Part shown: positions 3,221 through 39,409 of the stretch, piece by piece
How the letters are laid out: each line of letters begins with the position of its first letter
How positions within the stretch are numbered: the first letter of the stretch is position 1
Virus record (IMG/VR): IMGVR_UViG_3300003323_001282
Location: 1 to 39,424 of that record
Origin: a virus
Direction: 5' to 3' (one strand)
Length of the DNA: 39,424 nucleotides
Made by a program: the position numbers and the translations under genes
Notes under the pieces: generated by a model
The model's input: the letters and a program-made list of their open reading frames with translations, nothing else
What the model was told of the DNA's origin: nothing
Databases searched by the model: none

Positions 3221-5260
3221 TCACCTTATCCTCAGCTCCCTGAGCCTGTCGAAGGACGACGACGTGGCCGTCGGGTTGCACGACATGGACACCTTGAACT
3301 GGAGCCACTGCCAGCTCTGGAACGGCATCTTCGGGAACCCTTCTGACAGGACGGCGGTCGTCGTCGTGCCTATGAGCTGCCAGCTCGCCGACAGCGACTC
3401 CCTCGCGTACAGTGATATGCTGTCGCCCGACCGGAGCGGCTGGTCGAGCTTGAACTCCGCGCTGGCGAAGGTCTTGTTCTGGAAGTACGTTCCGACGGGC
3501 ACGATGTCCGTCTCTATGGCCGCCTCGCCGGACGAGTAGAGCGTCGTGTCGTTGTAGTCTATCGAGCTCGACGTGGCGCCGTACGCCGAGTAGTAGTTGT
3601 CGTAGTTCAGCGACAGGCTAGGGTTGTCGATCAAGACGCCGCCCGCGACGATCCCGGACGGCGCAGGGCCGCCGGAGTTCTCGTTCTCCATGACGAGCGC
3701 CTTGGAGTCCAGGTCTATGCTGTAGATCCCGGCTGATATGACCGAGCCCGTCTGGCCGTCCTTGGCGAGCATCTGGAAGTACGGCCTCTGCCTGTGCTGC
3801 ATCAGGCCTCCGACCGACCAGGCCGGGTCTATGACGCCCGCCACGTTGTCTGGCATCTTCTTGTACCTGTCCACGGAGTAGCCGTCGGACTGGTACACGT
3901 TTCCCTTGTTCCCGGCCCATATGTAGAGCTTGTTGAGTATGTTTATCGCCTTGGTTATCTCCTCGTCCATCGGTATAGGGTTGGTCCAGTACGGCGAGAA
4001 GAAGTCCCAGTTGTAGATCCTGAACTTCGTCATCGGGACGAGCTGGTTCTTCAGCTCGGTCAGCCACACGCTCGTCTCCGTCGGCGGCAGGGAGAGTATG
4101 TTCGCGTAGAAGGTGTACGTGGCCGGAACCGCCTTGTCGAACGTCTGGTTGAGGTTGAGGGTGAACGCCCCTATGTTGGGCCCGTTGCAGAAGTACGCGT
4201 TTCCGTCGTTCGACGCCACCAGGGACATGTGGTCCACGTCGCTCGACACGACCCGACCGTTCCACACGGACGTGAAGTTGGAGCCTGCCACGGTGTCGCC
4301 GTCGTAGTTCAGGGGGGCGTTCCAGGACACGTCGGGGCTGCCGTAGGTGAGGTTCGCGGTCACCACCTGCGTCCTGCCGCCGACGAGCCTTATGGTGAGG
4401 CTGTACGTGCCGGTGGGCATGCCCCACACCGACCTTCCGACGTTGTTCGAGTCGGGCACCGAACCTATGGTCGCCGAGGTGGCGCCCTTGGACGGCACCG
4501 ACGAGAACGTCCCGGTCACGCCGCTCCTTATCGGGAAGCCGCCCGCCATCGCCTGGTAGGTCTGCACGCCGGACTGGCTGCCCGACGTGTTCACGGACGT
4601 ACCGGCTATCGCGTTAGCGTACGTGGTCGACACCTGGAAGGTGTCCGCGGTCAGGCCCGCAGAGGAGACGTAGTAGTTGGTGTTGGCCGAAAGCCCGGTG
4701 GGGAGCGCTCCGGTCGTGAACAGGCGTATGGGCTGGCCGACGGACAGCCCGTGGTTGGTCGAGGTGAACACCGCCGGGCTCGCTATCGTCACCGTGAACG
4801 TCACCGACGAGAGCGGGGTGTTCCAGTTAGACGAGGTCACGCCCGCGTCCCCCGTGCCGTCGCCGCATATCTCCAGCCTCGCGGCCCCGTCCTGGCCGAA
4901 CACCAGGAGGTAGTTGTTCCAGAACTGGATGCCCGATATGTCCTGGGCGAAGTTGCCGGTGAGCCTCGTGAACGAGCTGCCGTTCGCCGAATCCTGCTTG
5001 AATATCTGCTGCGCGTCGTCCGATACGTATATGATGCCGGCGGGGGACTTCGTGGCCCACAAGGGCTTTCCCATGGTGCCGCCGCTCACCGTGCAGGACT
5101 TCCTCTTGTAGTTGACGTACGCCACGCCGTCGTAGTACCTGACGTTCAGGTTCTTTATGCTTCCGATGCCCTTGAACGGAGAGGCGGCGACGCCCTCCTC
5201 GAACCCGTCTATCACGAGGTCGTACTCTCCGTTGGCGTTCTTTTCCTTTCGGTATGCCAT
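3221..5260 (-). CDS. Tail nozzle / tail stabilization protein (T7 gp12 / P22 gp10-like)
   Basis: A 679-residue beta-rich protein opening MAYRKEKNANGEYDLVIDGF and ending FDRLRELRIR. Length, position next to the adaptor gene and the repeated hydrophobic strands (VWNGRVVSSDVDHM, KAINILNKLYIWAGNKG, LMQHRQRPYFQMLAKDGQTG) fit the beta-propeller nozzle of podovirus tails. Residues about 165-225 form an insert with NHGLSVGQPIRLF and YYVSSAGLTADTFQVS, a module common in tail proteins. Residues about 255-320 carry a GATSATI beta module like the two in the adaptor. The start is preceded by TAAACAA with no Shine-Dalgarno, and the upstream gene stops 4 bases before it. The family call is from architecture and context. 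Confidence 0.7.
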   Translation of the reverse strand: MAYRKEKNANGEYDLVIDGFEEGVAASPFKGIGSIKNLNVRYYDGVAYVNYKRKSCTVSGGTMGKPLWATKSPAGIIYVSDDAQQIFKQDSANGSSFTRLTGNFAQDISGIQFWNNYLLVFGQDGAARLEICGDGTGDAGVTSSNWNTPLSSVTFTVTIASPAVFTSTNHGLSVGQPIRLFTTGALPTGLSANTNYYVSSAGLTADTFQVSTTYANAIAGTSVNTSGSQSGVQTYQAMAGGFPIRSGVTGTFSSVPSKGATSATIGSVPDSNNVGRSVWGMPTGTYSLTIRLVGGRTQVVTANLTYGSPDVSWNAPLNYDGDTVAGSNFTSVWNGRVVSSDVDHMSLVASNDGNAYFCNGPNIGAFTLNLNQTFDKAVPATYTFYANILSLPPTETSVWLTELKNQLVPMTKFRIYNWDFFSPYWTNPIPMDEEITKAINILNKLYIWAGNKGNVYQSDGYSVDRYKKMPDNVAGVIDPAWSVGGLMQHRQRPYFQMLAKDGQTGSVISAGIYSIDLDSKALVMENENSGGPAPSGIVAGGVLIDNPSLSLNYDNYYSAYGATSSSIDYNDTTLYSSGEAAIETDIVPVGTYFQNKTFASAEFKLDQPLRSGDSISLYARESLSASWQLIGTTTTAVLSEGFPKMPFQSWQWLQFKVSMSCNPTATSSSFDRLRELRIR

Positions 5261-5264
5261 TTGT

Positions 5265-5504
5265 TTATTTGATAACCATCGGGACTATGAACTGCGCGAC
5301 GACCACTATCACCGCTATCGCCCCCGCCCAGTACGCCAGCTTCTTCTCTATCGAATTGAACCTCTCGTCGGTCCTCCTCGACAGGGAGTCGACCGCGTCC
5401 TGGATGTGCGGAAGGTGGTTGGTCATCACCAGCTTCATGTCGTCGGACAGATTCCTTATCCTCTCCTCGTGCAGAGCCACCTGTATCTTCTGATCGTCGT
5501 TCAT
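5265..5504 (-). CDS. XhlA-like small protein: coiled coil plus C-terminal membrane segment
   Basis: A 79-residue protein. Residues 1-55 are charged and heptad-like (HEERIRNLSDDMKLVM, DSLSRRTDERFNSIEKKL). Residues about 57-76 form one transmembrane segment (YWAGAIAVIVVVAQFIVPMV) with Lys at the end. This layout resembles haemolysin XhlA-type phage proteins, which often accompany holins, but short coiled-coil/TM proteins in tail clusters can have other jobs. It sits 4 bases upstream of the nozzle gene in the late operon, away from the holin-like gene at 35205. I see the topology directly; a lysis role is only a possibility. Confidence 0.6.
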   Translation of the reverse strand: MNDDQKIQVALHEERIRNLSDDMKLVMTNHLPHIQDAVDSLSRRTDERFNSIEKKLAYWAGAIAVIVVVAQFIVPMVIK

Positions 5505-5525
5505 TGCAATGTTCTATTTATTCCC

Positions 5526-6596
5526 TCACATAAAATTGCTGAGGAAGAACGAGCCTGACGGGGCGGATGGCTGGACGGGAGATATCGATGCGGCGACGAC
5601 GCCGTATGGCACGCTCGAGTTGGTCCAGTTGAGCGAGAACGGTCCTGCGGGCGTTATCGCGGAGCCGCTGTCCAGGACCCTGGTGCCGCCGCCGTCGGTG
5701 ATGCGGGCTGTCGCTCCGGATCCTGCTCCAATCATCACTCCGTTGTTTTGCTGGAATCCCGTGACGTACGAGTTGTTCAGGACCGTAGTGACGGAAACGC
5801 TGCCGTTCGTACCCGTGGCGCTCACGGAGTTGTACGCGTCCGTCGGGGTGCCCGAGTAAGTCATGGACTGGTTAACGCCCGAGTACACGACGCAGCACAG
5901 GGTGCCCCCTCCCTGGCTGTTAGATATCGTCATGGTGGCGTTCGCCGTGGTCGCGGACGGGGACAGCTTGTACCACATCGACATCGCCCCTAGGCCTCCG
6001 GCGTTGTTTATGACCAGCTCGGTGCCGCATATCGTCGCGGCCTGGGAGTTGAACGACGCGCCGGTCGTTAGGCCGGTCGAACCTGATCCGTTCGAGTACG
6101 TGAGCGCGTAGAACATCATCACCGTGTCGCTGCCCGAAGGCGTCATGGAGACCACCGGCGGGTTCGCGGTCGCGAAACCGGTCAGGTTCGCCTGATTGTT
6201 GGTGGGCGCCGATATGGCGAACAGGTATCCCGCCGCGGGCAGCGGCAGATTGAACCCTGGCGTCGAAAGCATCGGAACGCTGACGGAGGAAACCCTCGGA
6301 ATCTTCCCTCTTATGAAATTCCTTACCGTTCCCTCCACGTGGGCGAGCACGGACTCTACCGTGAAGAATTGGATCACGGTCTCCCCGGTTTCCTCGTCGA
6401 TGTGGGCAGCGGACTCTATCCTGACGGTGTCCCCCGATCCGTTATCGCCGCACCTCCTACCGGCGACGGACTCCCACATCCTGAAGAGTCTGTGAACTAT
6501 TGCCCCGGAGGATGCCGGACGGGACGTCGGCCGATGCCTCGGCACACCGGTTATCGACTCTACCGCCCTCTGCACCAGGATCGACATTCGATTCAT
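5526..6596 (-). CDS. Tail fibre / tail surface protein
   Basis: A 356-residue protein starting one base after the TAG of the upstream fibre gene. The first 60 residues are basic and Arg-rich (MNRMSILVQRAVESITGVPR). A charged helical stretch follows (ETVIQFFTVESVLAHVEGTVRNFIRGKI), then about 230 residues of Ser/Thr/Gly/Asn-rich beta sequence. Phrases such as SNSQGGGTLCCVVYSGV, SATGTNGSVSVTTVLNNSYV and GVMIGAGSGATARITDGGG resemble jelly-roll/beta domains of phage fibres. No catalytic motif is visible. Context with four other fibre-like genes supports a tail or receptor-binding role. Confidence 0.6.
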   Translation of the reverse strand: MNRMSILVQRAVESITGVPRHRPTSRPASSGAIVHRLFRMWESVAGRRCGDNGSGDTVRIESAAHIDEETGETVIQFFTVESVLAHVEGTVRNFIRGKIPRVSSVSVPMLSTPGFNLPLPAAGYLFAISAPTNNQANLTGFATANPPVVSMTPSGSDTVMMFYALTYSNGSGSTGLTTGASFNSQAATICGTELVINNAGGLGAMSMWYKLSPSATTANATMTISNSQGGGTLCCVVYSGVNQSMTYSGTPTDAYNSVSATGTNGSVSVTTVLNNSYVTGFQQNNGVMIGAGSGATARITDGGGTRVLDSGSAITPAGPFSLNWTNSSVPYGVVAASISPVQPSAPSGSFFLSNFM

Positions 6597-6597
6597 G

Positions 6598-7740
6598 CTA
6601 GTTTGTTCCGATTAGGTAGCCGAGGAAGGTGTTGGTGCCCGTGCACCGGAATCCGTAGGTGGTCTTTCCGTTCGAAACGGTGGTCTGGGTCGGAGCCGTG
6701 CCTCCTGACGTTACCCACGTGATGCCGGAGAACCATGTGACGGTGTAGCTCGTTCCAGATCCCTGCGTCACCTCGACCATGAAGCACTGGCCAGCGGAGA
6801 AGTTTGATTGGGTGAAGGTCTCCGAGCTGGCGAGCGTCCTCGTGAAGATGTTAGCGGTCGAGCCGTCAAGGGCCTGGGCGCCCATCGCCGTCACGGTCTG
6901 AATCGTTCCTACGAAGGTAGGCTTCACGTTGAACACGGCGACACCGGTGCCGGTTTCATCGGAGATTGCCGCAGCGAGCTGCGCCGACGTGGCCGTAAGC
7001 GTGTTGTTCGCCAGGCTGATGCTCTTGTTCGTGAGAGTTTCGGAGCCCGCGAGGGTGGCGAGGGTTCCAGTGGTGGGGAAGGTGACGTTCGTGGCACCCG
7101 TGAGCGTTCGGGTGTACGCGAAGTTTCCCGAGCCGGTGACCGTCATTGCCGCGTTATTCGCCACCCCAGTGCCTCCATAAGCAGGGCCGATAACCCCGCC
7201 GTTCCAGGTGCCTGTTGCGATGGTGCCGAGAGTGGTGATGGAGGTTTGGCCCACATACGTCGCCGCGATGTCGATTGCCGGAGTGGTGCCTCCAGACGAT
7301 GTGATTCGGTTGGAAGTCCCGGACACCGAGGTGACGTAGGTGCCCGCGGCCTGGTACTGCGGAATATTGAGGGTCGTACCGTTGAACGTAGCAGCTCCGG
7401 ACGTGCCCGTCGTCGTGAGCGCTATCGGCGACTGGTAGTCCGTGTTGGCGACCGCGGCGGATATCGCCGTGCCGTTCCCCTTCAGGACGCCCGTGACCGT
7501 GGTGGACATCGTTATCGCCGGCGTGCTGGTCGGGTTCGCGACGTTTCCGGCGAACCCGTTCGCGGTGACGACCGACACCGTGGTCACCCCGCTCACGCTT
7601 GCCGCGTCCGTGAGCAGCCTTCGGGTGATCGGGTCTATCGCGCTGTTCACCACCGTGCTGTCGTCAAGCGAGGACGTACCGCCCATCACGGGGTATCCGT
7701 TGTCGTCTCTCTGGAGCGCTCCGTTCTGTGTTATTGCCAT
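6598..7740 (-). CDS. Tail fibre protein with anchor-like N-terminus
   Basis: A 380-residue protein. The N-terminus (RDDNGYPVMGGTSSLDDSTV, then ITRRLLTDA) is a short module also present in the neighbouring gene 7747-8013, probably a fibre anchor. Low-complexity beta-repeat sequence follows: TGVLKGNGTAISAA, GTSNRITSSGGTTPAIDI, GTWNGGVIGPAYGGTG and GTLATLAGSETLTNKS, all common in metagenomic phage fibre proteins. The C-terminus (SSETFTQSNFSAGQCFMVEV to the final FLGYLIGTN) looks like a compact terminal domain. The AT-rich start region has no Shine-Dalgarno. A structural or host-recognition role is inferred. Confidence 0.65.
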   Translation of the reverse strand: MAITQNGALQRDDNGYPVMGGTSSLDDSTVVNSAIDPITRRLLTDAASVSGVTTVSVVTANGFAGNVANPTSTPAITMSTTVTGVLKGNGTAISAAVANTDYQSPIALTTTGTSGAATFNGTTLNIPQYQAAGTYVTSVSGTSNRITSSGGTTPAIDIAATYVGQTSITTLGTIATGTWNGGVIGPAYGGTGVANNAAMTVTGSGNFAYTRTLTGATNVTFPTTGTLATLAGSETLTNKSISLANNTLTATSAQLAAAISDETGTGVAVFNVKPTFVGTIQTVTAMGAQALDGSTANIFTRTLASSETFTQSNFSAGQCFMVEVTQGSGTSYTVTWFSGITWVTSGGTAPTQTTVSNGKTTYGFRCTGTNTFLGYLIGTN

Positions 7741-20630: not shown

Positions 20631-22127
20631 CTAGAACCTCATGCCCTTGGCCTTAAGCATGTCCATGGCGGCCTGGTCCACCGTCTTAGGGGGCAGCGTG
20701 ATGGCCATGCCGGACGTTATGAACGTGGACGCGAGGCCCACCGCGTTCCTGACCGCGTTCTTAACCACCTTCGCCGCGTCCAAGACCCTCGGGTCCGGGT
20801 CGCCGGCCACGCCGCTCGCGAGTATCTGCCTTCGCGGCTCCCTGAGCGCCGCGGCCATGACCCTGCCGGCCGGGGTGTCGGGCATCGATTCCGCGGCCCT
20901 GTGGAGCGCCATCCCCGCTCCCGCCACCGCCCCGTCCATGAGGGCCAGGCGGGCCGAGGCGGCGCCGTCCTCGGCCTTGGGCTTCAGGTACGACAGCTCC
21001 GACTCGCTGTTCGACCCTATCTTCAGCGTCGCCGTCCTGGAGTTGAGCCACTGCAGCCTTATGAGGCTGTCGTTGTCGCCCTTGGCCCTGAGGCGCTCGA
21101 CGTGTCCCGACACGTCGGCCCCTCCGGTTATGACCGCCTCGTCCTCGTCGACCGATATCCTGGCGCACGTGCCGAGGTGGTCGAGGCGCAGGCCCTTGAA
21201 CGTGACGCCCGTTGCGTCCTCCACTATCGTCGCGCCGGTCGCCTTGGCGAAGTCCTCGAACACGTAGCCCTTCCACAGGGTCGGTGCCTTGACTATGAGT
21301 ATCTTGGCCACGCCGTCCCTGTGCGCCCTGATCATGGCCGAGGCGACCGAAGGGTCCATGTCGTCGGTGAATATCACCAGCGGGCGGCCGGATATCGGCG
21401 ATCCGTCGGTCGTCAGCTTCTCCATGAGCGGGTTTATCTCTCCCAGGCTGGATATCCTGCGCTTGGTGACCAGCACCACCGGGTTCTCGTACGCGGCCTT
21501 GCCGTCCCTGCCGGCCATGGAGGCCGCGAGGTATCCGGTGCCGGAGAACCTGATGCCCTCGGTCGCCGTGAAGTACGTCTGATGGGTGTCCGAGCCCTCT
21601 ATGTGCACCACGCCGTCCCTGCCTACGGCCCTGAACGTGTCGCCTATGGCCTTTCCGAGCGCCTCGCTCTCCGCGGCTATCGACGCCACGCGGTCGACGT
21701 CGTCCACCGTGACGGGGGACTTCGACGCGTCTATGGCCGCCTCCACCGCCGGTATGAGCGCGTCCAGGCCGCGCTTGAGATCCAGCGGGCTCTCGTCGGA
21801 AGCAGCCACGCCGTCGAGTATGGCCTCCGCCATGATGGCGGTCGTCTTCCTTCCGTCCTTGCTCACCTTGTCCGCCCTGTCCATGAGCTCCTTGAGGTAG
21901 CTGATGCCCAGCCTCTGGTAGGGGTCCGTCGGGTTTATCAGGGACACTATCTTGCGCGCGTCGTTGGCGACCTCGTGGTACGGGTACAGCTCAGCCTCGA
22001 TCGACGCGTTCACCCCCCTCGGACCGTAGGCCTTCCTAACGGCCCTCGTGCCGATCTTGAAGCCTGCCACCTGCGCGGAGAACGCGTCCCTGTCGAATTT
22101 TATGTTGCTATCTGCCTGGGTATTCAT
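20631..22127 (-). CDS. groEL: GroEL-like chaperonin (HSP60), divergent phage form
   Basis: A 498-residue group I chaperonin, about 50 residues shorter than bacterial GroEL. Matching landmarks: AYGPRGVNASIE (residues 34-44; GroEL GPKGRNV), KDGRKTTAIMAEAI (90-103; GroEL GDGTTTATVLAQAI, with Thr to Arg/Lys changes), and the apical APTLWKGYVFEDFAKATGAT (281-300). Further landmarks are AEDGAASARLALMDGAVAG (385-403, keeping the catalytic Asp position) and DAAKVVKNAVRNAVGLAS (450-467). The Gly-Gly-Met tail is missing. It would fold phage proteins such as capsid inside an ATP-driven cage with the GroES-like partner at 22328. It overlaps the upstream gene by 20 bases. A thermosome relation is unlikely given these motifs. 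Confidence 0.85.
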   Translation of the reverse strand: MNTQADSNIKFDRDAFSAQVAGFKIGTRAVRKAYGPRGVNASIEAELYPYHEVANDARKIVSLINPTDPYQRLGISYLKELMDRADKVSKDGRKTTAIMAEAILDGVAASDESPLDLKRGLDALIPAVEAAIDASKSPVTVDDVDRVASIAAESEALGKAIGDTFRAVGRDGVVHIEGSDTHQTYFTATEGIRFSGTGYLAASMAGRDGKAAYENPVVLVTKRRISSLGEINPLMEKLTTDGSPISGRPLVIFTDDMDPSVASAMIRAHRDGVAKILIVKAPTLWKGYVFEDFAKATGATIVEDATGVTFKGLRLDHLGTCARISVDEDEAVITGGADVSGHVERLRAKGDNDSLIRLQWLNSRTATLKIGSNSESELSYLKPKAEDGAASARLALMDGAVAGAGMALHRAAESMPDTPAGRVMAAALREPRRQILASGVAGDPDPRVLDAAKVVKNAVRNAVGLASTFITSGMAITLPPKTVDQAAMDMLKAKGMRF

Positions 22128-29929: not shown

Positions 29930-30319
29930 AATTTCTTTTAGGCGCTTGTCTTGCTGACGCGCTACCCCCCTCCCCTGCACCCTTGCAGAGCTCCCTTCTC
30001 TCCTCCTCCTCCGCATCGCCTTCCTCTCCCTGCCAGAATGGTCCTCTCCCCTCGGTTCGGAATATCTCTGGCTGATATGCATAGGTCTGAAAAACGGGGC
30101 GGCCCGAATTCTTTCAGATGCATGCGTATGGAGTTATCGATCGGTCGGACGCAATCTCACGGCATTTGTTTTTGATTCCCTGCCGTGGCGCTGCGACTGC
30201 GCCCCTTCGGGAATTTATATGGGCGGGATTTCAAAGGAATGCACACCATTCACCGAAACTCCTTTGCCGTCTCGACCGTGACCTCAAACTCACTATCTCT
30301 AGTGCCGCTCTCTAGCGGG
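29930..30319. other. Structured non-coding stretch between HNH gene and tRNA-Ile
   Basis: 390 bases without a convincing gene. A possible 53-residue frame on the minus strand (30123-29962) has no supporting feature. The stretch holds perfect inverted repeats: CACGGCA (30158-30164) with TGCCGTG (30181-30187), CAAAGGA/TCCTTTG with a 21-base loop, GGCGC/GCGCC with a 7-base loop, and two small hairpins (CCGCT/AGCGG and CACTA/TAGTG with a GAGA loop) directly after the tRNA-Ile 3' end. It looks like the trailer or body of a processed RNA. Confidence 0.45.
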
Positions 30320-30391
30320 TGGACGAACCAGGGATCGAACCTGGTCTCTGAGAGGTATAAGCTCTCGGCTTTCCCATTAAGCTATTCGTCC
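30320..30391 (-). tRNA. tRNA-Ile(UAU)
   Basis: 72 bases. Acceptor GGACGAA/TTCGTCC, D-arm GCTT-AAGC, anticodon stem GAGAG/CTCTC with loop CTTATAC (anticodon TAT), variable AGAGA, T-arm CCAGG-TTCGATC-CCTGG, then A; CCA is not encoded. It reads AUA directly, without the lysidine-modified CAU tRNA, and AUA is the commonest Ile codon in the phage genes I translated by hand. Confidence 0.9.
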
Positions 30392-30482
30392 GTGACCTCG
30401 GGTTCATTTCCCTCCGGTCTTTTGCTCCCTCACCTACTCCCCTGAGGTTTCGTGAGTTCGCGACGCCATCGCAGGCGCTTTG

Positions 30483-30553
30483 TGCGGCATCCGGGAATCG
30501 GACCCGGGTCGAGTGCTTGGGAAGCACCCGTGCTGCCACTGCACCAATGCCGC
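30483..30553 (-). tRNA. tRNA-Gly(CCC)
   Basis: 71 bases. Acceptor GCGGCAT/ATGCCGC, D-arm with GTGCAGTGGCAGCAC, anticodon stem GGTGC/GCACT with loop TTCCCAA (anticodon CCC), T-arm CCGGG-TCCGATT-CCCGG. The acceptor start GCGG is usual for glycine tRNAs. It reads GGG codons. CCA is not encoded. Confidence 0.85.
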
Positions 30554-32483: not shown

Positions 32484-32693
32484 CTAGTTCTTCTTATTGC
32501 TCTCGGCTATTAATGCGTTTGCAAAGAGATATGCTTCTTCCGCCACTTTGTTGTAATGCCATTCGGGGCGCTTACCGATGATTGCCTTCATCGCCTCTAT
32601 CGCTATGTGGTCGCGGACGGTGATTCCTGCGGGTATGAAATGCCCGTTACATATCCTTCCATCCGTGCCGAACGCGGGTGCTTTAGGGTCCAT
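32484..32693 (-). CDS. Hypothetical protein, 69 aa
   Basis: The ATG at 32693 (MDPKAPAFGTDGRICNGHFI) follows the upstream TAG by 2 bases. PAGITVRDHIAIEAMKAIIG and KVAEEAYLFANALIAESNKK are helical. No domain is recognised. Longer upstream frames have no natural start and cross the noncoding 32849-33253 stretch. Confidence 0.55.
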   Translation of the reverse strand: MDPKAPAFGTDGRICNGHFIPAGITVRDHIAIEAMKAIIGKRPEWHYNKVAEEAYLFANALIAESNKKN

Positions 32694-32695
32694 GG

Positions 32696-32848
32696 CTAGT
32701 TGATGGCTACCGCGTATCCCCAGTAAAGTCCGACGAACGCCGCCGCGAGCGCGGTCATGGCCGCCATCCCGCCGACGAACTTCTTGGTCTCCGGCGACAT
32801 CCAGGCTCTCCTCTCCGACAGGTAGGCCCTCATGTGGTTTCCGTGCAT
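32696..32848 (-). CDS. Small membrane protein, 50 aa
   Basis: The ATG at 32848 (MHGNHMRAYLSERRAWMSPE, then TKKFVGGMAAMTALAAAFVG) has a C-terminal membrane span ending LYWGYAVAIN. AT-rich AACAAAACACT precedes the start. A later ATG at residue 6 is also possible. It opens the accessory operon; no promoter with good -35 and -10 boxes was found upstream. Confidence 0.5.
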   Translation of the reverse strand: MHGNHMRAYLSERRAWMSPETKKFVGGMAAMTALAAAFVGLYWGYAVAIN

Positions 32849-33060
32849 AGTGTTTTGTTCCCCTTTTCCCCACATACACCAATGACGATATATAGGGGGA
32901 AGAGGGCATTGGTTCCCGATGGCCAAATTCCATCGGTGGTGTTTGGCACCCGCCGGGGCGCAGTCCTTCCGTCTCTCTCCCGTAACCCAGCGGTCGCGCG
33001 GTGCTCTTTGCGCTTGGCCAGACAGGGGCATCGACGGGGCTCTGCGCCGCCGCGGGTGAC

Positions 33061-35204: not shown

Positions 35205-35435
35205 CTAAAGCGAGGCGATCTCGCCCGAATCCCTCCAATTCCACGACTTCTCGGCGGCCATGAGGACGCCGTTGATGCCCCCCGCCACGAGGGCAATGAT
35301 CGCGGCCGACAGCGCCGTCCCCAGGTCCGACCACGTGGAAGGAGAACCTATCGTGACGAGGCCAGCGGTGGAAACGACGCCCGCCGCGAACGCCTTGAAG
35401 AACCTCTTTATGACAGCCTTGTGTTTGTTGCTCAT
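35205..35435 (-). CDS. Holin-like membrane protein
   Basis: A 76-residue protein with MSNKHKAVIKRFFKAFAAGV, two hydrophobic segments (about 13-29 and 41-59: TALSAAIIALVAGGINGVLM) and a short charged end (AAEKSWNWRDSGEIASL). The layout resembles r1t-type small phage holins that also contain a 'NGVLMAAEKxW' ending. Its start shares ATGA with the stop of the C1A protease gene, so the pair is co-translated. It would make the membrane hole that lets the lysis enzyme out. Function from topology and pairing. Confidence 0.7.
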   Translation of the reverse strand: MSNKHKAVIKRFFKAFAAGVVSTAGLVTIGSPSTWSDLGTALSAAIIALVAGGINGVLMAAEKSWNWRDSGEIASL

Positions 35436-36319
35436 ATTCTAGGTATTAAAGCCTTTAATGGACCGAACCTCCTCAGTATCTCCAGCAGGCTGCGCCATAC
35501 TCCTTCGGATACGGTCGGTCCCTGGTTCCGGAACTGGGCGACCGAATCTAGGGTAAGAGCCCAGCACTCCGTCGGGGCGTAGTCCTCCAAGACGTGCTCT
35601 CCGTGGCCCCTCCTACCCCACCTGCCCGACCACCAGTTCAGGAAGCCCAGCTCCGTGCCGTCGGACAGGGCGTACCTGTGATGGTCCACTGCATGGCCCG
35701 AAACGACGCTCTTTGATTTTCTGAGCGGAAAGATGTCCTTCGGAAGCCATGAAGGGGACCACCACGAGTCGCCCACCTCCATCCTCGTCAGCAGGAGGCC
35801 GTACTTGTGGATCGCGGCGGCCATGAGCGACCTGTCGACCGGCACGGACACGTATCCGCCTATGGTGAAGTCGAGGGCCTCGGTCCACGCCGCGTCGGGA
35901 ACCCACTGGGACAGGAACTCCGCGTGGGACAGGGAGTAGTCGGTCGGGAACGTAGACTCCCTGCACACGCCGTACTTCATCGCGGCTCGGATGCCCGACC
36001 TCAGCGACGTGCCCTCGTACGGATTGCCGTCCACGAGCCGCTTTATGGCTATGTACAAGAACGCGACCGACAGCCTCTCGTACTTGCCGGTCTTGAGCCA
36101 GTACAGGTATTCCACGTACGTCGCCACGGCGCACGCCACGCACACGCCCACGTTCCTCTGGTAGCGGTCGTAGAGCGCCTGCCTGTCTTCGCCCGTGAAG
36201 CCGGGGAATTCCGTCTCGTGCGACTCAGGGTACGGGGACGCGAGGGAAAGCGTCGGGTCCTTGATGTCCCTGATGTCCCTCGCCGATGGGAGCGCTCCCG
36301 CCTTGAACGTCTTTTGCAT
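35432..36319 (-). CDS. Papain-like C1A cysteine protease, candidate lysis enzyme
   Basis: A 295-residue protein. Cys63 sits in the VGVCVACAVATY motif (papain QGSCGSCWAF), His209 in VVSGHAVDHHRY (papain DHAV) and Asn228 in FLNWWSGRWGRRGHG (papain NSWGxxWGxxGY): the full C1A triad. The N-terminus has RDIRD, as at the mature start of several C1A proteins. It has no signal peptide, as expected for a holin-dependent enzyme. The ATG follows a terminator hairpin directly. It would cut peptide bonds in the cell wall cross-bridges or surface layer proteins; the exact target is unknown. A prohead protease is less likely given its partner gene. Confidence 0.8.
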   Translation of the reverse strand: MQKTFKAGALPSARDIRDIKDPTLSLASPYPESHETEFPGFTGEDRQALYDRYQRNVGVCVACAVATYVEYLYWLKTGKYERLSVAFLYIAIKRLVDGNPYEGTSLRSGIRAAMKYGVCRESTFPTDYSLSHAEFLSQWVPDAAWTEALDFTIGGYVSVPVDRSLMAAAIHKYGLLLTRMEVGDSWWSPSWLPKDIFPLRKSKSVVSGHAVDHHRYALSDGTELGFLNWWSGRWGRRGHGEHVLEDYAPTECWALTLDSVAQFRNQGPTVSEGVWRSLLEILRRFGPLKALIPRI

Positions 36320-36547: not shown

Positions 36548-36607
36548 CTAACGTCACTTGTCGAGAATTATACGTGTGGTATGGTTGGTTTGTCAGGCAC
36601 TAATTAT

Positions 36608-37285
36608 ATGGAACACATGAAGAACGCAATCGCACTGCTCGCGGCCGTATCGCTCCTTTCGCCTTCCCTGGCCTCGGCGGCCTGGTGGAACCCTGTAGAC
36701 TGGTTCAACGTTCGGGTGAACGGTGTCGAGGAGGTCTCAACTGCCGCCGCGGACATGCCGCCGTCCTTCGAGGACGAGATGCCGCCGCAGGCATCGAATC
36801 CGATTGTTGGGACGAGGGTGGAGACCGTCTACGTCGACAACCCGTCCCTCTCGCTCCAGGTGCAGGCCCTCATGCAGGACAACAAGGAGCTGGGGGAGGA
36901 GCTGGCGCGTCTCAGGGCCGCATTGTCGAACGCGTCTTCGTGCAAGACGGATGAGGCGACTACGGCAACCCCTGATACTAAATCCGAACAGGATAGGCTA
37001 GAGAAGCTTGAGTCCATAGATTCTGACATACTCGATGCCATAGGTTACGTGCTTAGGTTCAAGCCCGTCGGATCGGACCTGTCTTCCAAAAAGACTGCCA
37101 TCAACCGTGCGCTCGCGTCCTACAGGATCGTAGACCCCAAGATGTCCCACCCCGACCTATCCCTCTCCCCCATGTACTCCCAGTCTTCGAACACGAGGTC
37201 GAGGACGGTGGCATATGGAGATGCCGCGTACTCAGACGTGTCCGAGCTGAAGGCGTACTTAGAGGACTATATAAGGTACAGGTAG
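36608..37285 (+). CDS. Exported coiled-coil protein, plus strand
   Basis: A 225-residue protein; a second ATG at 36617 is the likelier start because MKNAIALLAAVSLLSPSLAS is a clean Sec signal peptide ending before AAWWNPVDWFNVRV. The mature start WWNPxxWF is typical of small exported CPR proteins. A heptad region follows (SLQVQALMQDNKELGEELAR) and a helical C-terminal half (SIDSDILDAIGYVLRFKP). It lies outside the lytic operons, has its own direction and may be a lysogeny-expressed (moron) gene acting at the cell surface. Function unknown. Confidence 0.65.
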   Translation: MEHMKNAIALLAAVSLLSPSLASAAWWNPVDWFNVRVNGVEEVSTAAADMPPSFEDEMPPQASNPIVGTRVETVYVDNPSLSLQVQALMQDNKELGEELARLRAALSNASSCKTDEATTATPDTKSEQDRLEKLESIDSDILDAIGYVLRFKPVGSDLSSKKTAINRALASYRIVDPKMSHPDLSLSPMYSQSSNTRSRTVAYGDAAYSDVSELKAYLEDYIRYR

Positions 37286-37286
37286 G

Positions 37287-37511
37287 ATGTGGGTATTCGC
37301 TGGGTTAGTCTGCTTCCTGCTCGTCGTCGGATCGATGGTCAACGGGAAACCCGTTGATTTCGCGGTGAAGTCGCTGGTTGCCATGGGCGCTCTCGCCTTC
37401 CTGGCGTTCGTCCTGGCGAGCGCCCATACGATATGGAGCGACGCGACGAAAGGGGAATCGCCAGCCGTAGACTACCCTTCCGCACGGACGAGCCCTGATT
37501 TCGACTGGTGA
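37287..37511 (+). CDS. Small membrane protein, plus strand, 74 aa
   Basis: MWVFAGLVCFLLVVGSMVNG, then KPVDFAVKSLVAMGALAFLA and FVLASAHTIWSDATKG: two membrane segments and a polar tail. It begins one base after the exported coiled-coil gene, so the two form a unit. Two-span proteins of this size can be holins or immunity proteins. It meets the transglycosylase gene end-to-end with only 2 bases between the stop codons and no terminator. Confidence 0.6.
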   Translation: MWVFAGLVCFLLVVGSMVNGKPVDFAVKSLVAMGALAFLAFVLASAHTIWSDATKGESPAVDYPSARTSPDFDW

Positions 37512-37513
37512 TT

Positions 37514-39409
37514 CTACCTTCCCTCTGCCCTTTCGCGTATCTCGCCAGCGTAGAATCCTGGCTTGACCGCCTTCTTAGACCCGCGCGCCAGCTTGGTCAT
37601 CATTCCCTCCTGCAGGCCTCCCTGCAAGAACGACGCGGCCTTTGACTTGTTCGACGTGCCGAGCAGCCCCCTTCCCAGCGATTCGCCCGCCGCGGTTCCG
37701 ATCAATTCCCCCACCGGGCCGAGTCCAAGCGTCTCCGCGAGCTTGTTGCCGGCGAACGCGCTGATGGCTCTGCCCCCGACGCCCATCTCATTCCTGCCGA
37801 CGGCCTTCTCTAGGAGCTTCTGGTATGCTATCGCCGTGCCGTACTCCTTGTTGAAGTCGCTGGGAGCCCTCCCGAATATCGTCTCTCCTCCCTTTTCGAA
37901 CGCGTCCTCTATTATATTTTTGAACAGATGGCCAGAGGTCCTGTTGGCTATCCTCGAGGCAGAAGGGACCGCCGCGTCGAACTTAGAGGCGTTCCAAGCG
38001 TCCTTCTTCAGCCTCTGCACCTCCTTCATGGTCAGCACGTCGCCTTTTATCTTGCTCTGTATGTGGCTTATCTTCCTGTCCATCACAGACCTGACCGCGT
38101 CATACGTCTCCGGCTGGCCCGCGAACGTCTCGGCGAGCGCGTCCAGGCCCCTTATGACCTCTTCCTTGGGAACGGTCTGTGACGAGTTCTCCGTGGCGCG
38201 GTCTATCTGCTTCTCGAAGTCGTCAAGGACGTCCTGGTGCTTCGCCATCCTCTCTTCGGGGCTTCCGGTGACGCGCCTCTCCGCGCCATACCTCACCACG
38301 TCGCTGTCGGATATGTTCGCCGTCCTGTCCACGCTCGATTCCGGGGTGTTGAACACGTTGTCCTTTATGAGCTTACCCTTCTGAGTGGGGGTGAGGCGCA
38401 GGTTCGATTCTTCGATGCGCGCGGCCGCTTTCGACCTGATGCCCTTGGTCGCGTCTGCGGCCGCTGACTTCAGTCCGCCCGCGACGGATATAGGGTCAAT
38501 CGCCCTCCCTACGCTCGATACCGCCTCCCCCACGTCGGCGAGCTTACCGGCTTTTGACAGGGCGCCGAGCTTCGAAGCGGCAGCTCCGCCTCCCGTGACC
38601 GCGGTCGATGCGTCCAGCAAAGCGCCGACAGGGTCGTTGTACAGGGTGTCCTTTATCGCCTGTCCGCTGCCGTACCTGTCCTTGGCGTATCCTATGAGCG
38701 CGTCCGCGTACCTCTCCTGCTTCTGCTCGCCCGGTATGAGCTTCTGGGCGAACCCGACGCCGGTGCCTACGAGCGCTTTTCCGGTCTGGATCGGGTGGAC
38801 GATCGCCTCTACCGTGCTTCCTATGACGTTCGCCGCGCTCTTGCCGACGTTGCCGAGGAAGCCGCCGACGGTCTTCTGCCCCGTCTGTTGCGCGACGCCC
38901 TGCCTTCCGAGATCAACCGGGTAGGCGTTACCCGTGAGTCCCTCCGGCGTCTGGGCCGCCGTCGGCTGTCCCTTGAACTGGTGGTACGCCTGGGCGACCT
39001 TGGCGGCGTATGCGGGCACGTCGAATTCGACGCCCTTATCGTTGACGCCCTTGTACGACGGATCCTGATAGGCGTTCGCAGCGCCCTCTCCGGCGTTCCA
39101 CATCGAGGCGATCTGGCCCGGGTTGTAGCCCTTGTCCTTCCACTCCTTGACGCGCTTGTACGCGACCTCGTTCTGTTCCTCGGGGGTGGCCGATTCTATG
39201 GGCACGTCTCGGCCGAGGTACTGCTTCGAGTACCTCCTCCACGTCTCCGGCATGAACTGGTAGCCTCCGACCTCTCCGGACTTGCCTCGCGCCTGGAAGT
39301 TGCCATTGCTCTCCGTCTGCCTGATGGCCTTTGCCAGGTTAACCGCGTCCTGGTCGAGCTGGGGCGGCTGGTTGGGTGCCTGCAGAGTCCCTTGCTGTAA
39401 TGGGTTCAT
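37514..39409 (-). CDS. Internal virion protein with N-terminal transglycosylase domain
   Basis: A 631-residue protein. Residues about 20-135 form a lysozyme-like SLT domain: AKAIRQTESNGNFQ (catalytic Glu33), GEVGGYQFMPETWRRYSKQY and GQIASMWNAGEG. A linker and helical, Ala/Gly-rich regions follow (GKALVGTGVGFAQKLIPGEQ, AVTGGGAAASKLGALSKAGK). Then comes a charged middle (DDFEKQIDRATENSSQTVPK) and a Gly-rich C-terminus. Such proteins are ejected at infection and open the host peptidoglycan locally. Across the joined window ends it lies 5 bases after the partial gene at 1-1337, giving adjacent internal virion genes. The end meets the plus-strand pair. Confidence 0.8.
   Translation of the reverse strand: MNPLQQGTLQAPNQPPQLDQDAVNLAKAIRQTESNGNFQARGKSGEVGGYQFMPETWRRYSKQYLGRDVPIESATPEEQNEVAYKRVKEWKDKGYNPGQIASMWNAGEGAANAYQDPSYKGVNDKGVEFDVPAYAAKVAQAYHQFKGQPTAAQTPEGLTGNAYPVDLGRQGVAQQTGQKTVGGFLGNVGKSAANVIGSTVEAIVHPIQTGKALVGTGVGFAQKLIPGEQKQERYADALIGYAKDRYGSGQAIKDTLYNDPVGALLDASTAVTGGGAAASKLGALSKAGKLADVGEAVSSVGRAIDPISVAGGLKSAAADATKGIRSKAAARIEESNLRLTPTQKGKLIKDNVFNTPESSVDRTANISDSDVVRYGAERRVTGSPEERMAKHQDVLDDFEKQIDRATENSSQTVPKEEVIRGLDALAETFAGQPETYDAVRSVMDRKISHIQSKIKGDVLTMKEVQRLKKDAWNASKFDAAVPSASRIANRTSGHLFKNIIEDAFEKGGETIFGRAPSDFNKEYGTAIAYQKLLEKAVGRNEMGVGGRAISAFAGNKLAETLGLGPVGELIGTAAGESLGRGLLGTSNKSKAASFLQGGLQEGMMTKLARGSKKAVKPGFYAGEIRERAEGR

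Follow-up and report, generated by a model that had tools for sequence, protein, structure and literature searches.

Phage endolysins are classed by catalytic domain; two endolysin surveys (PMC5968864, PMC9371310) do not list C1A papains among the classes in their main text, which mentions neither papain nor PF00112. Endolysins with CHAP, NlpC/P60 or Amidase_5 domains likewise have a papain-like topology, belong to the cysteine peptidases or amidases and in many cases carry wall-binding domains (PMC10318531, PMC8586454); the CHAP and NlpC lysins form a separate cluster (II) of the papain-like superfamily, with a 'GD' motif (PMC10318531). The nearest described precedent is the set of N-terminal cysteine protease domains in mycobacteriophage LysA, which are also peptidase domains within modular endolysins but are RipA-like (N4) or C39-like (N5) rather than C1A, and are usually joined to an amidase, muramidase or transglycosylase (PMC3314691). 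Transfer of C1A enzymes of the xylellain type to Myoviridae and Siphoviridae has been reported, in a passage that states no lysis role for them (PMC10380794). In phage THSA-485A, whose host is Thermoanaerobacterium saccharolyticum, a gene cluster that includes small membrane proteins has a C1A gene (AFK87691.1, annotated only as a peptidase) immediately after the gene of a GH25-PG_binding_1 endolysin. A description of a C1A endolysin was not found in the open-access literature.

The locus described here lies in the viral record IMGVR_UViG_3300003323_001282 (39,424 bases; 'the window' denotes positions 1-39,424 of this record) and consists of a C1A peptidase gene and a gene for a small membrane protein (together 35205-36319). 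With a probability of roughly three in four, judged from sequence and structural modelling, the pair encodes a holin-dependent C1A endolysin that would cut peptide bonds at the cell wall. It is probably a variant of the holin-endolysin cassette, C1A enzymes not usually being counted among phage lysins.

The C1A peptidase and its active site

The proposed endolysin is encoded on the minus strand (35432-36319, 295 amino acids). The open reading frame is counted as a real gene because homologues in other phages, at about 30% identity, retain its active-site residues; ribosome-binding sites were uninformative as gene evidence, the Shine-Dalgarno motif being at background level at the starts of 23 window genes. 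Leaders of window gene starts are A+T-rich, and several contain TAAC or TAACC.

By sequence and predicted fold the product is a C1A (papain-family, xylellain-like) cysteine peptidase. Searches of Pfam, PHROGs and NCBIfam gave no significant match, and Pfam Peptidase_C1 did not match at E<1, a Pfam match being a detection criterion and not the definition of the family; homologues from other phages (G005, L190, L192 and L195) exceed the Peptidase_C1 cut-off. The sole convincing phmmer match in the PDB was the C1A peptidase xylellain (3ois, E=4e-4), which a nine-sequence profile matched at E=1e-22. An AlphaFold2 model (pLDDT 75.7, pTM 0.78) has the papain fold; in Foldseek its best match was again 3ois (E=1e-14, TM 0.70/0.77), followed by cathepsin L and papains. 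Fold and Gln-Cys-His-Asn active site are thus shared with xylellain, which is however a free bacterial protease with 21% identity to the window protein in the structural alignment. CHAP, NlpC/P60 and Amidase_5 domains were absent by Pfam, and the best structural matches were C1A. Scanning viral contigs with the single protein returned no close homologue, and a profile search of genome contigs yielded a single distant planctomycete protein, whose surroundings show no evident phage genes. The alignment with the THSA-485A enzyme covers 41% of the window protein at 30% identity (E=0.2).

The initial annotation had assigned a catalytic triad Cys63-His209-Asn228, of which the histidine and the asparagine stand. 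Gln54, Cys60, His209 and Asn228 are invariant across an alignment of nine homologues and occur in the order expected of a C1A enzyme. Cys60 is the predicted nucleophile (codon 36140-36142, minus strand, as for all codons here), because it is invariant and lies six residues past the oxyanion-hole Gln54 (36158-36160), which is the papain spacing, while relatives have His, Gln or another residue in the Cys63 column; Cys63 was rejected accordingly. The predicted catalytic His209 and Asn228 are encoded at 35693-35695 and 35636-35638.

On inspection of the sequence the N terminus has no hydrophobic segment, in agreement with the earlier statement that the protease lacks a signal peptide. At the C terminus a Pfam scan detected no PG_binding_1 domain; the position that this domain has in homologues is taken by an amphipathic, basic helix (residues 270-284; 35468-35512, minus strand) in a low-confidence part of the model, with a hydrophobic moment of 0.63, a value reached by about 5% of tail shuffles.

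The membrane-protein partner and the surrounding genome

The partner gene (35205-35435, minus strand) encodes 76 amino acids with two hydrophobic segments at about residues 12-30 and 40-60, and its start overlaps the stop of the peptidase gene by ATGA (35432-35435, read from 35435 to 35432), as had been noted initially. No holin family in Pfam, PHROGs or NCBIfam matched it, and no homologue was detected in the viral contigs scanned. It is holin-like by size and topology, being small, within the range of one to four transmembrane segments, and located beside the putative lysin. The arrangement is that of a lysis cassette, with the overlapping two-helix protein on one side and a slot shared with the M23-like and Amidase_5-like enzymes of relatives. 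Counting against an endolysin, the window pair is isolated, neither a tail gene nor an XhlA-like one lying directly upstream.

The genome is probably circular and complete in the 39.4-kb record, since both ends share CAGTTA and, when the circle is closed there, the gene order across the junction matches that of relatives such as G010 and G012, the leftmost minus-strand reading frame running to a TAA that precedes the start of a gene for a 631-aa protein by a few bases. Gene content includes TerL, TerS, portal, capsid, tail fibres, GroEL and integrase; a tRNA-Ile (anticodon TAT) and a tRNA-Gly(CCC) lie at 30318-30553 (minus strand).

The 631-aa virion protein (37514-39409, minus strand) carries an N-terminal transglycosylase domain (Pfam Transglycosylas/SLT), the sole SLT match in the window (39349-39056). 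Relatives conserve the protein even where their lysin is of another kind, and on these comparisons it is probably a lysin for DNA ejection and not for release. Between it and the lysis pair lie two opposite-strand genes (36590-37285 and 37287-37511, plus strand), the first with a signal-like N terminus in its product; G011, L192 and L194 also have an opposite-strand gene near the equivalent place. A second lysin hidden in the window was sought among the 138 other open reading frames by Pfam scan and rejected, no further lysis-type family being found within Pfam sensitivity, so that the initial annotation was right, to this depth, in listing no endolysin besides the virion transglycosylase. That no other lysin family occurs in an apparently complete genome counts for the endolysin reading.

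The same slot in related phages

Related phages were gathered through TerL and capsid protein, and 17 records, most of them whole, were examined. Their cassette lies mostly behind tail genes and often consists of a coiled-coil one-helix protein, an enzyme and a small membrane protein. The enzyme is C1A by direct match in G005, G009/G010 and G011 (G005 and G010 having a capsid protein similar to that of the window phage), gives weaker C1-like matches in G007 and G020, and is recognised in G028 by its motif and by weak phmmer similarity to G005 (E=2e-4 to 1e-4), with no Pfam match. The slot holds an M23-like enzyme in G001, with a homologue in G013, and an Amidase_5/CHAP-like enzyme in G002, both types scoring below the Pfam cut-off. 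Small membrane proteins adjoin the slot enzymes of G001, G013, G002, G003 and G012.

Six further phages (G003, G012, G014, G016, G025 and G032) carry a divergent C1-like slot family with invariant Gln53, Cys62, His236 and Asp251. Against the profile of C1A enzymes with PG_binding_1 this family aligns with a probability of 99%, partly via the common wall-binding domain. By fold its assignment to C1 is unproven, the model being too weak (pLDDT 64.7, pTM 0.61) despite top matches to Lpg2622, xylellain and cathepsins. Members of this divergent family with PG_binding_1, whose catalytic part has no Pfam name, are encoded on the plus strand of L211 (3001-4113), L212 (2995-4116), L214 (2980-4074) and L215 (3004-4098), the wall-binding domain being seen by eye in L212, L214 and L215; small membrane proteins follow all four genes, with a 4-nt overlap in L212 and L214.

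The slot is thus, as judged from sequence comparison, occupied by exchangeable enzymes (M23, Amidase_5/CHAP-like, C1A and divergent C1-like), and since exchange within one slot is the behaviour of lysins, this counts for a lysin. A small membrane protein follows at -60 to +100 nt in 7 of 10 C1A genes, or 6 of 9 when the window is left out, compared with a background of 24 of 452 genes (5.3%); the corresponding binomial p for 6/9 is about 2e-6, a value made optimistic by treating related phages as independent.

Wall-binding domains, absent from the window protein, are present in its homologues. PG_binding_1 is C-terminal in the C1A enzymes of G005 (E=2.6e-8), G010 (E=7e-9), L190 and L198 and in the divergent enzymes of G003 and G012, and internal in the L195 protein. 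The last is a single 608-aa open reading frame (IMGVR_UViG_3300048834_000083, 4920-6746, plus strand) comprising C1A (Peptidase_C1, E=5e-9), PG_binding_1, M15 (Peptidase_M15_4, E=5e-11; PHROG 2649 endolysin, E=4e-36) and two C-terminal membrane helices. Its C1A domain is homologous to the window enzyme (26% identity in the alignment), from which it differs in being fused to a known endolysin domain and membrane helices. The whole protein is an apparent lysin-holin fusion; an assembly fusion is possible in this metagenomic record, though the reading frame is uninterrupted.

Proposed function, alternative explanations and host

The initial proposal of a protein-cutting lysis system was strengthened by the comparison, namely by slot exchange, PG_binding_1, the L195 fusion and the membrane proteins encoded next to the enzymes. 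The place of the THSA-485A C1A gene behind an endolysin gene also counts for a lysin, as does a 23-aa C-terminal stretch common to the two enzymes (E=0.003). Gene order, overlap, fold, active-site conservation, replacement in the slot by known lysin classes and the PG-binding and M15 fusions are direct observations; the missing PG_binding_1 of the window protein and the missing holin match of its partner count against an endolysin. In the mechanism proposed, the gene pair would act as a host-lysis cassette: the peptidase, without a signal peptide, would build up in the cytoplasm, the two-helix protein would act as the holin, and the enzyme would leave through the holin lesions and cleave peptide bonds within the cell wall or at its surface by means of Cys60, His209, Asn228 and Gln54. 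Candidate bonds are those of a peptidoglycan cross-bridge or of a wall-bound or surface-layer protein.

The usual targets of papain-family enzymes are L-L bonds in proteins, and peptidoglycan stems contain mostly D and isopeptide bonds. This preference counts against an endolysin acting on peptidoglycan and favours the main rival, in which the C1A enzyme is an auxiliary lysis protease that strips a surface layer or wall-anchored proteins while peptidoglycan is cut by the virion transglycosylase or by an unrecognised lysin. Pairings of C1A with a second enzyme point the same way. Small transglycosylase-like proteins, recognised by weak resemblance, are encoded downstream of C1A in L190 (6371-6853), L195 (6782-7255), L198 (1307-1768) and G010 (32490-32912), and given these proteins the C1A enzyme may be auxiliary rather than the main lysin; only that of L198 comes near the Pfam cut-off, the others being seen by eye or by weak phmmer matches, and some carry N-terminal hydrophobic segments. 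In THSA-485A the C1A enzyme is likewise paired with GH25, a separate lysin that the window lacks. However, PG_binding_1 on several homologues would place the enzyme at peptidoglycan, and a second soluble lysin was not found in the window or in G005. An auxiliary role is on balance unlikely, and it overlaps with that of an endolysin, so the two estimates are not additive.

Considerably less probable is a moron, a protease that would target host proteins (in takeover, defence or superinfection exclusion), inside the cell or after secretion, and not the envelope. Phage C1A genes do exist outside lysis clusters, as in Streptomyces phage Sycamore, where one lies among tRNA genes, so that membership of the family alone is no proof of function; the window pair is moreover near the integrase, a frequent site of accessory genes. 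The ATGA-overlapping holin-like gene, with the same arrangement in most homologues, and the wall-binding fusions on homologues count against such a protease. A virion maturation or ejection protease with a membrane-protein neighbour by chance is very improbable: prohead proteases are common in phages and the window genome showed no second recognisable protease, but sister phages with a 91% identical capsid protein fill the slot with M23-like or Amidase_5/CHAP-like lysins, so the capsid is independent of C1A, and homologues carry PG_binding_1 and M15.

If the endolysin reading holds, a class of phage lysins escapes searches by known domains, and the substrate of the enzyme would identify a peptide or protein component by which the host envelope is held together. 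The virus seems to infect bacteria. An attempt to name the host through its capsid protein failed, no relative being encoded in the genome contigs searched, and the initial suggestion of a CPR (Patescibacteria) host thus found no support there. A wider generalisation is offered tentatively, with the odds against it: the GroEL-carrying phage lineage would lyse its hosts with papain-family endopeptidases (C1A and divergent C1-like), some members having no other soluble lysin, and release would come about by cleavage of L-peptide bonds in a cross-bridge or protein layer and not of the bonds that known endolysins attack. The phage-encoded GroEL (20631-22127, minus strand, in the window) is present in nearly all relatives examined, and one further window reading frame gave a Cpn10 match in the Pfam scan.
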